From Fibrobacter sp. (GTDB taxonomy: Bacteria; Fibrobacterota; Fibrobacteria; Fibrobacterales; Fibrobacteraceae), in NCBI GenBank assembly GCA_017530965.1, contig JAFXLS010000011.1, positions 1-35,118 on the forward strand: a stretch of DNA of 35,118 nt, given 5' to 3'. Every line of letters starts with the position of its first letter. Within the stretch, counting starts at the first letter, position 1. The notes under the pieces are model-generated. The model was not told where the DNA came from, ran no database searches, and worked only from the letters and a program-made list of their open reading frames with translations. Shown here piece after piece: positions 18,616-21,585 of this stretch. A program made the translations under genes and the position numbers.

Positions 18616-18634
18616 CCGCACCCAAAGGGTGCGG
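18616..18634 (-). terminator. Terminator of the radical SAM/lipoprotein operon
   Basis: An 8-bp GC-rich stem (CCGCACCC with GGGTGCGG) closes a 3-base loop. On the - strand it is followed by CTTTTT and lies 27 bases past the radical SAM stop. On the + strand it is followed by TTTTTT, so it is probably bidirectional. Confidence 0.85.
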
Positions 18635-18660: not shown

Positions 18661-19737
18661 TTATGCGCCGGCGTCTTCGAGGCGTTTTACGTGGCAGTAT
18701 GCGAGTTCCTTGGTTTTCTCGTCTCTGAGGTGGAGGCTGGAGCCTTCGCAGTAGCGCCAGTACTTGCAGGTCTTGCAGTCGCCGATTTTAGCCCAGCTGC
18801 GGTCGCGCATCACCTGGTAGCGGTTCTGCCATACGTCCCAGAGGTCGTCCTTGTAGATGTTACCCTGGATGTAGTCGCCGCGGAGGCTCGGGCAAGCCGA
18901 GATGCTTCCGTCGCAAAGTACGGAACTGACGTTCACGCCGGCACGGCAGAAGAACGGGTAGTTGCGGGCTTCTTTTTCGTAGCTGCCGAGGAACCCTTCG
19001 CAGCCGTAGTTCACGTTGATGACGTTCAGCTTCTTCACTTCGCGGATGAAGTCGAACACCTGGCGGAATTCCTGGTTCGTGAGCTGGAACAGCGGATTGT
19101 CCTTGGCGCGGCCCTTCGGGAACACCGTCGCGATGCGCCAGCGCTTCACGCCGATTTTCAGGAGAATGTCGAGAATCTTCGGGAGTTCCTTCAAGTTCTG
19201 GCGGTTCACGCACGTCATCACGTCGAAGGTGAGGCCCTGCGTGTGGGCGGCCATGTCGATGGCGCGGAGCGCGTTGTCGAAACTCGTGGGGGCGCCGCGG
19301 AAATGGTTATGGCTTTCCTTGAGGCCGTCCAGGCTAATCGTGAGTGAGCGGAGGCCTGCGTTCAGCAGCTTGGTGTAGCGTTCGGGAGTCATCGCAAGGC
19401 CGTTGCTGACCATTCCCCAGGGGTAACCGCGCTTCTTGATTTCCATGCCGCATTCTTCGAGGTCCTGACGCATCAAGGGTTCGCCGCCGGTAATTACCAC
19501 GATAAAGTGCTTCGGGTCAATGTGCGGGGCAAGTTTGTCGAGCACGCCCATGAAGTCTTCGCGGGGCATGTCGGGGATGGCGTCCTTCACGCAGTCGCTA
19601 CCGCAGTGTAGGCAGTGCAGGTTGCAGCGCAGTGTGCATTCCCAGAAAAAGTAAGTAAGGGGGTGCGCTTTGATTTCGTTGTGACGGTAAAGGCGATAAG
19701 CTTCGAGAGCGAGTTTCTTTTTAAGAGAGAGCTTCAT
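18661..19737 (-). CDS. Radical SAM/SPASM enzyme of an rSAM/lipoprotein system
   Basis: The protein has 358 residues. The radical SAM cluster motif is C38-x3-C42-x2-C45 (in R-C-N-L-H-C-L-H-C-G-S-D-C). The SAM-binding G-G-E-P-L-M-R follows near 90, and S-L-T-I-S-L-D-G-L near 130. The C-terminal SPASM region (about 265-350) carries many cysteines (F-F-C-R-A-G, V-L-C-D-G-S-I-S-A-C-P-S-L, D-C-K-T-C-K-Y-W-R-Y-C-E-G-S-S, A-Y-C-H) for auxiliary 4Fe-4S clusters. Such enzymes usually modify peptides or proteins. The N-terminus (F-F-W-E-C-T-L-R-C-N-L) resembles, from memory, the TIGR04133 group that occurs beside lipoproteins in Bacteroidetes. Three lipoprotein genes lie immediately upstream on the same strand, making them the likely substrates (inference). 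The start lacks a ribosome site; the 35-base gap before it carries a 7-base tandem repeat. Confidence 0.9.
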   Translation of the reverse strand: MKLSLKKKLALEAYRLYRHNEIKAHPLTYFFWECTLRCNLHCLHCGSDCVKDAIPDMPREDFMGVLDKLAPHIDPKHFIVVITGGEPLMRQDLEECGMEIKKRGYPWGMVSNGLAMTPERYTKLLNAGLRSLTISLDGLKESHNHFRGAPTSFDNALRAIDMAAHTQGLTFDVMTCVNRQNLKELPKILDILLKIGVKRWRIATVFPKGRAKDNPLFQLTNQEFRQVFDFIREVKKLNVINVNYGCEGFLGSYEKEARNYPFFCRAGVNVSSVLCDGSISACPSLRGDYIQGNIYKDDLWDVWQNRYQVMRDRSWAKIGDCKTCKYWRYCEGSSLHLRDEKTKELAYCHVKRLEDAGA

Positions 19738-19743
19738 AAAAAA

Positions 19744-19768
19744 TGTGAAGTGTGAGGTGTGAAGTGTG
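19744..19768. repeat. 7-bp tandem repeat before the radical SAM gene
   Basis: Units TGTGAAG, TGTGAGG, TGTGAAG and a partial TGTG follow one another in the gap between the last lipoprotein gene and the radical SAM start. The tract occupies the position where a ribosome site is expected on the - strand. Confidence 0.8.
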
Positions 19769-19772
19769 TAAT

Positions 19773-20141
19773 TTAGTGAATGCGTTCGCTTTCAACGTAG
19801 TATTTTGATTTGAATTCGTCTTCCGTGATTGAAAAGTCTTTGTCTTGCTTGTCGGAGCAATTTAGAACGGTATCACCTTCATTAGCCCAACAAGTCACAT
19901 TGTCTTCGCATTGATAATATCTGGAACATGTTGGTGCTGGAATGAAGGTGCAGTTCTGACCGTTATCGTCTCCGTAAAAGCCGTCATCGCAAGAATAACC
20001 GGCGACGCCGTATTCGGGACAGATTTGCTCCAAATCGCAGTCAGTCAGCTCCTTGCTGTCACTTGACGAATCATCGCTGCAACCGTTCCAGAACAAGGCG
20101 AACAGGCTAAAAAGAATTTTTTTCCAATGCTTGTGAATCAT
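19773..20141 (-). CDS. Cys-rich lipoprotein 3, putative rSAM substrate
   Basis: The protein has 122 residues. The signal peptide K-H-W-K-K-I-L-F-S-L-F-A-L-F-W-N-G-C has Trp at lipobox position -3 and Cys21 as lipidation site; it closely resembles those of the two upstream lipoproteins. The mature part has eight further cysteines (35, 41, 51, 64, 72, 78, 84, 95). It contains I-C-P-E-Y-G-V at 40-46, almost identical to I-C-P-D-Y-G-V in lipoprotein 1, plus F-Y-G at 55-57. Its tail (T-E-D-E-F-K-S-K-Y) resembles lipoprotein 1 near 166-174. The start overlaps the lipoprotein 2 stop in an ATGA junction, and the radical SAM gene follows after 35 bases. Confidence 0.85.
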   Translation of the reverse strand: MIHKHWKKILFSLFALFWNGCSDDSSSDSKELTDCDLEQICPEYGVAGYSCDDGFYGDDNGQNCTFIPAPTCSRYYQCEDNVTCWANEGDTVLNCSDKQDKDFSITEDEFKSKYYVESERIH

Positions 20142-20857
20142 TTGTCGATCTCGTCGTTAGAACTGTTTAGGCACTTGTTAATCCGCTGTTCGATTTCCTT
20201 CAGCTTGTCTTCATAAGCTTTCTGGAGTTCTTCGTCCAGGGCGGGCTTGTTCGCTTCCCATTCTTCCTTCATCTTCAGGAATTGTGCGTATTCTTCGCTA
20301 GGCCTGATGGTGCCGTCAATGCATTTTTCTACCGCATTTCTAATGATGGTCGGAGCGCCATAAAGCGCCACGAATTGGTCGAGTTCCATACGCAGGTGTT
20401 CAAGACACATGGGCGTTTCGGCCAACGTCTCCTTGACGGAATCTATCTTGGCTACTGCATCGTGCTTGGCCGCTTCCTCTTTCCAGAATTTGGCATTGTC
20501 TGCACTGTAATCGTTGGGGAAATACGATACACTGGAATCCATGGGGAAACATTTGACGTCAATGGAATCGGGAGGCTCGACACCATAAAGAAGGCCGGCG
20601 ACGAATTCGCTGCTGGAACTTTCGGGCTTGGCTGCTTCGGAACTAGATGAAACGTTCTTCTTGCTAGAACTGGACAGCACGCCGCTAGTCTCGCTGGAAC
20701 TGGATTCATCGTTGTTCGAATCGCTGCTTTCGGGCTCATCGTAGCAACCGTCCGGAGGGCATCCGTAAAGTGGGGTATCCTCGGTTGTTTCGCTACAGCT
20801 GGCCCAGAAGAATGCGGTCAGCGAAAGGGCGATTTTTTTCCAGTGCTTGTAGAACAT
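20138..20857 (-). CDS. Lipoprotein 2, putative rSAM substrate with Ser-rich linker
   Basis: The protein has 239 residues from the ATG at 20857. An upstream in-frame TTG would add five residues, but the ATG gives the same M-F-Y-K-H-W-K-K-I-A start as lipoprotein 1 and has GGGGAA upstream. The lipobox is W-A-S-C (Cys21). A low-complexity Ser/Glu linker spans about 44-84. Tyr-Gly motifs occur at 31-32 (P-L-Y-G-C-P-P), 91-92 (L-L-Y-G-V-E-P-P) and 166-167 (A-L-Y-G-A-P). The C-terminal third is charged and helical (about 185-230), unlike the other two lipoproteins. It has fewer cysteines: 21, 33, 38, 103, 151, 179 and 229. It is the middle gene of the operon. Confidence 0.85.
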   Translation of the reverse strand: MFYKHWKKIALSLTAFFWASCSETTEDTPLYGCPPDGCYDEPESSDSNNDESSSSETSGVLSSSSKKNVSSSSEAAKPESSSSEFVAGLLYGVEPPDSIDVKCFPMDSSVSYFPNDYSADNAKFWKEEAAKHDAVAKIDSVKETLAETPMCLEHLRMELDQFVALYGAPTIIRNAVEKCIDGTIRPSEEYAQFLKMKEEWEANKPALDEELQKAYEDKLKEIEQRINKCLNSSNDEIDK

Positions 20858-20890
20858 CTTCAATTTCCCCAAAAGTTTTCTGACTAATTT

Positions 20891-21523
20891 TTATTTCTCT
20901 GCATCGTCGCAGGTGCCGTTGAATACGCAGGGCGGACCATAAAGGACAGGTTCTTGTTTAAATATGGTATCTTGAGGTTCCTCGACTACAGTTATCTTTC
21001 CGTAGCGGGCACGGAATTCAGCTTCGCTGTATACCTTGCCGTCGCATTCGTAGGTGTTTTCGGAAATCTGCACCACGCCGTAATCAGGGCAGATTTCGTC
21101 GCTACAGGGGAATTCGGGTGCCCAACGTTCTTCAGTCACTTGCTTGCAGGTGGCGCCGTCAGCGCAAGTCATCGTAGCTTCGCCTTTTAACTGGGTGCAA
21201 ACGTATTTGTCCAAGACCACACCGTATAAAGGTTGTGCTTCGACTAGCGTGTCTCCGCTGCTGCTGGAATTCAAAATGGGATCGTCCGGAACGCCGTAAG
21301 CAGGCATAATCTGTTCGAAGCTGCTGGAACTAGCTTCGGTCGCTTCGCTAGAACTGGATGTCGTTTCGTTTCCGGTTGCTATGCTGGAACTAGATTCGGG
21401 TGTCGCGACGCTACTGGAACTGGGTTCTTCAGATCCGTTTGCAGAGGTGGTATCGCTGTCACAACTGGCCCAGAAAAATCCGGTCAGGGCAAGCGCGATC
21501 TTTTTCCAATGCTTGTAGAACAT
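20891..21523 (-). CDS. Lipoprotein 1, putative rSAM substrate with repeated Tyr-Gly motifs
   Basis: The protein has 210 residues, preceded by a strong GGGAG ribosome site. Signal peptide M-F-Y-K-H-W-K-K-I-A ending W-A-S-C (Cys21). A Ser-rich linker with four S-S-S-S runs spans about 35-68. Tyr-Gly motifs occur at 76-77 (P-A-Y-G-V-P), 100-101 (P-L-Y-G-V), 148-149 (I-C-P-D-Y-G-V), 174-175 (R-Y-G-K) and 195-196 (V-L-Y-G-P-P). Eight cysteines lie beyond the anchor (109-205). The recurrence of [PDL]-Y-G-[VP] in otherwise unrelated contexts suggests a recognition or modification site for the downstream radical SAM enzyme (inference). It is first in the operon, with its own promoter. Confidence 0.85.
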   Translation of the reverse strand: MFYKHWKKIALALTGFFWASCDSDTTSANGSEEPSSSSVATPESSSSIATGNETTSSSSEATEASSSSFEQIMPAYGVPDDPILNSSSSGDTLVEAQPLYGVVLDKYVCTQLKGEATMTCADGATCKQVTEERWAPEFPCSDEICPDYGVVQISENTYECDGKVYSEAEFRARYGKITVVEEPQDTIFKQEPVLYGPPCVFNGTCDDAEK

Positions 21524-21556
21524 ACTGTTCTCCCTTCTTAGTGTCTCTCGATAACG

Positions 21557-21585
21557 AATATATATAAATGGTTATTACCCTGCAA
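21557..21585 (-). promoter_or_regulatory. Promoter of the lipoprotein/radical SAM operon
   Basis: Read on the - strand, TTGCAG (21585-21580) and TATATT (21562-21557) are separated by 17 bases. Transcription would start near 21550, giving a 5' UTR of about 27 bases. Confidence 0.65.

Follow-up and report, generated by a model that had tools for sequence, protein, structure and literature searches.

The stretch of DNA considered here (hereafter the window) comprises 35,118 nucleotides of contig JAFXLS010000011.1 from a Fibrobacter sp. genome assembly of 174 contigs (GCA_017530965.1). On its minus strand it encodes four genes in series: three predicted lipoproteins recognized from their open reading frames (ORFs) and signal peptides, namely LP1 (20891..21523, 210 aa), LP2 (20138..20857, 239 aa from the ATG, with a TTG at 20872 as a possible start) and LP3 (19773..20141, 122 aa), followed by a radical SAM/SPASM enzyme of the TIGR04133 family (18661..19737, 358 aa). 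The reading frames of LP2 and LP3 share 4 nt, gaps of 33 and 35 nt separate the other neighbours, and the four genes form a genuine operon. Below we present evidence that the enzyme is probably a splicease directed at Tyr-Gly sites in these lipoproteins.

A terminator-like stem lies about 27 nt beyond the stop codon of the enzyme (18616..18634, minus strand); as such sites are found in the region in a chance number, it is position alone that suggests a role in termination. An earlier note on this DNA had placed all four genes under one promoter, which finds no support in a promoter scan of the region (three sites against 3.3 expected). It had also extended the feature to 21585; this falls upstream of the coding start, the first start codon being at 21523. 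The operon encodes neither a peptidase nor a transporter, and its products are predicted lipoproteins of 122-239 aa rather than the small secreted peptides of spliceotide-type RiPPs (ribosomally synthesized and post-translationally modified peptides).

The lipoproteins and the enzyme

The three lipoproteins were identified by rule and by eye alone. Each starts with a signal peptide ending at a lipobox Cys, as is typical of bacterial lipoproteins: MFYKHWKKIALALTGFFWAS-C in LP1 (21461..21523), MFYKHWKKIALSLTAFFWAS-C in LP2 (20795..20857) and MIHKHWKKILFSLFALFWNG-C in LP3 (20079..20141), all on the minus strand. As the earlier note had observed, K-H-W-K-K is common to all three signal peptides, each of which ends, after the hydrophobic stretch, in the lipobox F-W-[AN]-[SG]-C; the mature parts differ. 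The suggestion that they are of the TIGR04134 kind has to be dropped: none of the three matches this profile at E values up to 1 (cut-off 39.8 bits), and by score they are not members. The partner lipoprotein of a Parabacteroides enzyme scores 207 bits on it. No family cut-off was passed by LP1, LP2 or LP3 in profile and Pfam scans; LP2 (20138-20857) shows a weak match to PF20278, the CTD2 of ABC-three-component systems (E 0.0011, 18.7 bits, cut-off 25).

The enzyme scores 623.4 bits on TIGR04133 (cut-off 425), with residues 5-354 aligned to positions 1-350 of 350, and is thus a member of this family, as the earlier note had anticipated. The Pfam Radical_SAM and SPASM domains both match it. 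The next-best profiles are TIGR04053 (139.8 bits), AhbD (136.1 bits) and TIGR04103 (135.3 bits); the last of these, the PlpX type, which we take to be the same as IPR026482, has a cut-off of 725 bits, and the enzyme is not a member of it. The CxxxCxxC motif of the SAM cluster corresponds to C38/42/45, and both it and seven further cysteines (246, 264, 282, 321, 324, 330 and 348) show no variation across 17 members of three phyla, represented by Fibrobacterota, Parabacteroides and Treponema. An AlphaFold2 model (pLDDT 91.5) predicts with confidence a SPASM peptide-maturase fold, in which a single helix (residues 5-24) that is not of the size of a RiPP recognition element (RRE) precedes the core. 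Foldseek searches with this model recovered ordinary SPASM matches, the best ones including SuiB and SkfB; anSME and PqqE are also among the solved folds near the enzyme. The closest named enzyme among the matches listed is 99% identical and comes from a Fibrobacter succinogenes metagenome assembly. In six Fibrobacter arrays (L048, L051, L064, L076, L108 and L111) there is a second enzyme copy, 80-86% identical to that of the window.

Tyr-Gly sites and their coupling to the enzyme

The three lipoproteins together contain ten Tyr-Gly (YG) pairs, whose conservation was scored in homologues of LP1 (67), LP2 (39) and LP3 (50), paralogues included. Eight of the ten are kept above their flanks: in six the pair is retained at 0.87 or more and in two at 0.54-0.57, while the remaining two are not conserved. 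The likely sites of LP1 are four, all coordinates here being on the minus strand: aa 76 (MPAYGVP, 21293..21298; Y 0.55, G 0.57, flank 0.23), aa 100 (QPLYGVV, 21221..21226; Y 0.99, G 0.96, flank 0.28), aa 148 (CPDYGVV, 21077..21082; Y 0.97, G 0.97, flank 0.48) and aa 195 (PVLYGPP, 20936..20941; Y 0.88, G 0.88, flank 0.35). LP2 has three, at aa 31 (TPLYGCP, 20762..20767; Y 0.87, G 0.97, flank 0.42), aa 91 (GLLYGVE, 20582..20587; Y 0.54, G 0.54, flank 0.41) and aa 166 (VALYGAP, 20357..20362; Y 1.0, G 1.0, flank 0.63); the second is the weakest of the eight, and its score is reached by 3.8% of background YG contexts. LP3 has one, at aa 44 (CPEYGVA, 20007..20012; Y 0.92, G 0.92, flank 0.39). Two pairs with background-like scores were rejected as incidental, namely ARYGKI at aa 174 of LP1 (20999..21004; Y 0.94, G 0.07) and GFYGDD at aa 56 of LP3 (19971..19976; Y and G both 0.06). 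Other Tyr residues are kept at 0.67, 0.81 and 0.80 in LP1, LP2 and LP3, and other Gly residues at 0.42, 0.46 and 0.18. The counts of five, three and two motifs given in the earlier note stand for bare YG; its fuller motif [PDEL]-Y-G-[VPCA] fits three, three and one. I-C-P-[DE]-Y-G-V does occur in both LP1 and LP3.

A set of 109 non-redundant Fibrobacter lipoproteins contains 323 YG pairs, compared with 61 +/- 7 (maximum 89) over 1000 shuffles, an approximately five-fold enrichment, and 107 of the 109 carry at least one. The sites share the frame [PA]-[LK]-Y-G-[VI]-[PV], with P (51%) or A (26%) at -2, L (46%) or K (22%) at -1, V (54%) or I (12%) at +2, and P (36%) or V (12%) at +3. We scored sites with a matrix trained on the lipoproteins alone, against a background of 497 YG contexts from which ORFs were excluded if they had HW[KRDE]K close to the start, YGV together with SSSS, or the Cys motif of the enzyme. 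By this measure 284 of the 323 sites score 4 or more, with zero to eight such sites per protein. The residue X preceding the Tyr varies (L, K, D, E, A, V), and at least two different residues are used in 47 of the 50 proteins with three or more strong sites. The earlier note had proposed either Tyr-Gly or nearby Cys as the target: the former is both enriched and conserved, while Cys is not a general companion, since 20% of the sites have one at -3 and 18% at +7.

The enzyme is matched at an E value of 1e-60 in 90 of 167 genomes of the phylum, and a scan of genome contigs confirmed at least 577 relatives; most of the 80 loci kept from it belong to Fibrobacter and Bacteroidota, and Spirochaetales, Neomarinimicrobiota and Bacillales contribute one record each. 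Neighbourhoods were examined for 152 distinct enzymes, which come from Fibrobacterota, Bacteroidota and a small number of further groups (181 hits gave 160 distinct sequences, of which four scoring under 300 bits and four with under 600 nt upstream were omitted). By rule, a YG lipoprotein lies within 4.5 kb upstream or 2 kb downstream of 130 of these and within 300 nt upstream of 119, with up to nine near one enzyme; a first automatic pass within 300 nt had yielded 63/76 and 73/76. The 22 enzymes that failed the rule were inspected by eye, and every one of them has a YG ORF within 700 nt. The start is signal-like in 20, although several of these are not of the lipoprotein type (for instance L072, with RYGIMPDYGIMPEYGVSAWYGI); the two exceptions are L073, where the ORF is cut by the contig end, and L080, with no signal in the frame read. 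Neighbours reaching a site score of 4 are found for 72/76 Fibrobacter-type enzymes, 46/76 others and 36/249 control genes, the matrix having been trained on Fibrobacter-type proteins.

Both observations that the earlier note had named as speaking against it, namely an unconserved motif and enzymes lacking such proteins in related genomes, failed to appear: six window sites are kept at 0.87 or more and a YG ORF lies near each of the 152 enzymes examined. Its idea that one enzyme serves several multi-site substrates agrees with the conservation, enrichment and neighbourhoods, which point to several multi-site candidates per enzyme.

In the Fibrobacterota relatives L068-L072, L090-L092 and L103 the YG proteins directly upstream of the enzyme start with MGK and have what looks like an ordinary signal peptide, with no lipobox by eye; they contain as many as four consecutive YG sites (L072). 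Loci L163, L175 and L183, from Paludibacteraceae and another Bacteroidales, show two tandem enzymes beside a small (NCLYGxPS) and a larger (LYGCPYAxYK) YG protein. A Fibrobacter sister group of TIGR04133, with 37-38% identity to the window enzyme, is represented by L093 (6982-8082), L067 (6992-8086) and L066 (4010-5110); no YG neighbour was found for these three, and L067 and L093 score 270-273 bits, under the TIGR04133 cut-off. In L093 and L066 a conserved ORF (MGTGFVKT.PDTTRLTFEV), which we take to be SIMPL-like, lies upstream of the enzyme.

We also searched 80 genomes of the genus, 71 with and nine without the enzyme, for DNA encoding the signal-peptide pattern K-H-W-K-K...F-W-x-x-C and found 130 sites in 56 genomes. 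Of these, 118 lie within 7 kb of the enzyme and the other 12 are in genomes with the enzyme elsewhere; 11 of the latter were read and have YG without exception (the twelfth, L210, was not recovered). The pattern is thus present in 56/71 enzyme-bearing genomes against 0/9 enzyme-less ones (Fisher p 6e-6), seven of the nine being under 85% complete and two 99% complete. Near Fibrobacter-type enzymes there are 166 distinct lipoproteins with strong YG sites; W occupies position -3 relative to the lipobox Cys in all 166 and HW is present in 148, as opposed to 6/47 and 5/47 among rule-found candidates lacking YG. A signal peptide that is constant while the mature parts diverge is the behaviour expected of a leader. 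A signal motif common across phyla was sought but could not be established: [WYF]x[KR][ILVAFM] occurs in 16/40 non-Fibrobacter substrates against 14/61 rule-found controls (p 0.08), and in 58/77 cases within Fibrobacter-type loci. An aromatic residue at -3 was rejected as a general feature beyond Fibrobacter-type loci (F in 10/46 and W in 2/46).

Relationship to the PlpX-type spliceases

In a 37-row tree, from which the long-branched PqqE was left out, TIGR04133 falls together with the PlpX and GDL types on one side of a branch with support 96/92 (93/99 in a first tree that included PqqE); the PlpX type is represented by four of the six proteins retrieved. Two alternative placements of TIGR04133 were rejected, one beside TIGR04053 (p 0.007) and one beside the AhbD/NirJ2 type (p 0.002); the AhbD/NirJ SPASM enzymes of haem synthesis, despite similar profile scores, group elsewhere in the tree. 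Sequence signatures mirror the branch: H-C-G-S at the SAM cluster is present in 24/24 rows inside and 0/13 outside, and D-G-x-[IV]-x-[AG]-C-P-S-L in 16/24 inside (TIGR04133 9/12, PlpX 5/5, GDL 2/3) and 0/13 outside.

PlpX (IPR026482) works with the RRE protein PlpY, according to PMC11002830, and PlpXY reportedly cleaves at MYG and LYG. The candidate system of the window resembles these spliceases in the X-Tyr-Gly site, often with L or M before the Tyr, in the possibility of several sites per precursor and in the tree grouping; it differs in that the precursors there begin with leaders of the Nif11 or nitrile-hydratase kind and an RRE partner is present, whereas the window proteins have signal peptides and their operon contains no RRE gene. 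A PlpX-type enzyme of Nostoc adjoins a precursor ending in ALYGLPPELF, and two published PlpA tags along with this Nostoc site (ALYGLPP) outscore 96% of the 497 background contexts on the lipoprotein matrix.

Other related pairs offer further comparisons. The Parabacteroides, Treponema and Phocaeicola loci of the TIGR04133/TIGR04134 pair also encode a lipoprotein with an early YG beside the enzyme, but the window lipoproteins do not match TIGR04134 and those of Fibrobacter carry up to eight strong sites. The GDL-motif maturases of TIGR03913 are 47-48% identical to the Nostoc PlpX-type enzyme. The DUF1843 peptides of their systems have P-Y-G near the start in two of five read, but are small, show no signal sequence by eye and have a YG frame that does not fit the lipoprotein matrix. 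Two such peptides stand beside TIGR03913-type enzymes in L127 (3290-3502, RPYGPAM) and L126 (3699-3869, QPYGAGI), and it is possible that these pairs constitute a further YG-directed system.

The proposed reaction and its alternatives

LP1-LP3 carry the X-Tyr-Gly sites of candidate splicease substrates, and we consider it rather probable from the sequence evidence that the TIGR04133 enzyme excises tyramine at these sites in the three operon lipoproteins before export. The earlier note had named no chemistry; it is the comparison with PlpX that favours tyramine excision. The enzyme is likely to be a multi-substrate, multi-site splicease, with no RRE partner in the operon; the reaction itself is something we infer. 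The enzyme would meet the preproteins in the cytoplasm while they are unfolded. With neither an RRE domain apparent in the enzyme nor a partner gene in the operon, recognition may fall to the near-constant signal peptide, K-H-W-K-K...F-W-x-x-C, acting at the same time as a leader. From there the enzyme could move along the Ser-rich, probably disordered linkers and excise tyramine at each xYG, with a loss of 135.0757 Da per site: most of the Tyr would be cut from the backbone, leaving an alpha-keto-beta-amino acid residue in which the former X bears a ketone next to the Gly amide. The spliced proteins would then be exported and lipidated, yielding lipid-anchored envelope proteins with one (LP3), three (LP2) and four (LP1) keto-amide sites. 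Spliceotide products are described as protease inhibitors in PMC11117315. X as P1 with P or A at P2 would fit common protease preferences; therefore, one may speculate that TIGR04133 enzymes, with the Sec signal as leader, turn exported protein families into lipid-anchored arrays of keto-amide electrophiles in which X sets the P1 of tunable surface protease traps, a doubtful extension that is quite unlikely to hold in full.

Several observations weigh against splicing. Branches in the tree are long and its rows few, and we defined the groups for testing only once it was in view. L093 and L067, which have no YG neighbour, fall on the TIGR04133 side; thus, the clade alone does not imply YG substrates, and with many SPASM families absent from the tree, homology alone is no proof of common chemistry. 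By profile score TIGR04103 is no nearer to the window enzyme than TIGR04053 or AhbD, and the enzyme has just 28% identity to the Nostoc PlpX-type enzyme. PlpX works together with PlpY, and we saw no counterpart of the latter in the operon and no RRE domain in the enzyme model, the rest of the genome not having been searched. The PlpA tags score under about 85% of the lipoproteins' own sites, while the Treponema and DUF1843 sites misfit the matrix and look like background. Conservation is likewise high at the remaining Tyr residues of LP2 (0.81) and LP3 (0.80), and 15 of the 71 enzyme-bearing genomes are without the signal pattern. Finally, a bare exported-YG neighbour is common by chance (143/152 enzymes against 114/249 control genes; 145/152 against 147/327 in another control set), and with so many control genes passing we set this aside as weak evidence.

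Among the alternatives, the sites might be modified by a different chemistry that leaves the backbone intact: the Tyr could be cross-linked to a neighbouring side chain, for example, or altered at its own side chain or C-alpha. YG conservation as such would fit any Tyr-directed reaction and SPASM enzymes are chemically diverse, with SuiB, SkfB, anSME and PqqE among the nearest solved folds; yet Gly is kept about as strictly as Tyr at the conserved sites, the possible cross-link partners at +2/+3 vary, and the nearest tree group of known chemistry is the PlpX type, making this option unlikely, if by no means negligible. That the reaction instead forms thioether or other links at Cys near the motif is brought to mind by the I-C-P-[DE]-Y-G-V of LP1 and LP3 and by the Cys frequencies at -3 and +7. 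With about four-fifths of the sites lacking Cys at -3, and LYGVE and LYGAP of LP2 having none within four residues on either side, it appears most improbable.

The YG might also be a docking or structural motif, with the enzyme acting elsewhere, for instance on the signal peptide or on linkers rich in Ser: a motif may be conserved for recognition and never be modified, and the signal peptide is itself conserved, down to the invariant W at -3. On the other hand, the mature parts of substrates from different phyla have little in common except the YG site, often xYGxP, so that no other common target is apparent, and we regard this as very unlikely. Even less is to be expected from mere co-occurrence, that is, lipoproteins and enzyme being only co-regulated and not related as substrate and enzyme. 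What is known of the link comes from sequences, but a YG ORF lies near all 152 enzymes and the signal pattern is absent from the nine enzyme-less genomes (significant by the Fisher test, even if seven are under 85% complete).

To our knowledge, no reaction has been assigned to the TIGR04133/TIGR04134 pair. In the literature searched we found no mention of the two accessions or of their NCBI product and model names, and among the matches listed no title on splicease, keto-amide or SPASM chemistry on lipoproteins; the work of Scott (2022) may already cover such proteins. Lipoprotein splicing is not treated in the accessible parts of PMC10533398, PMC11002830, PMC8326336, PMC11117315, PMC10373908, PMC5442110 and PMC10352776. 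If splicing is indeed the reaction, natural splicease homologues would be at hand, and these, according to PMC10533398, would broaden the labelling method described there. Likewise, a widespread family with at least 577 relatives would gain a reaction, a Sec signal peptide would serve as a modification leader, and backbone tyramine excision would extend from small peptides to the multi-site surface lipoproteins of fibre-degrading bacteria.

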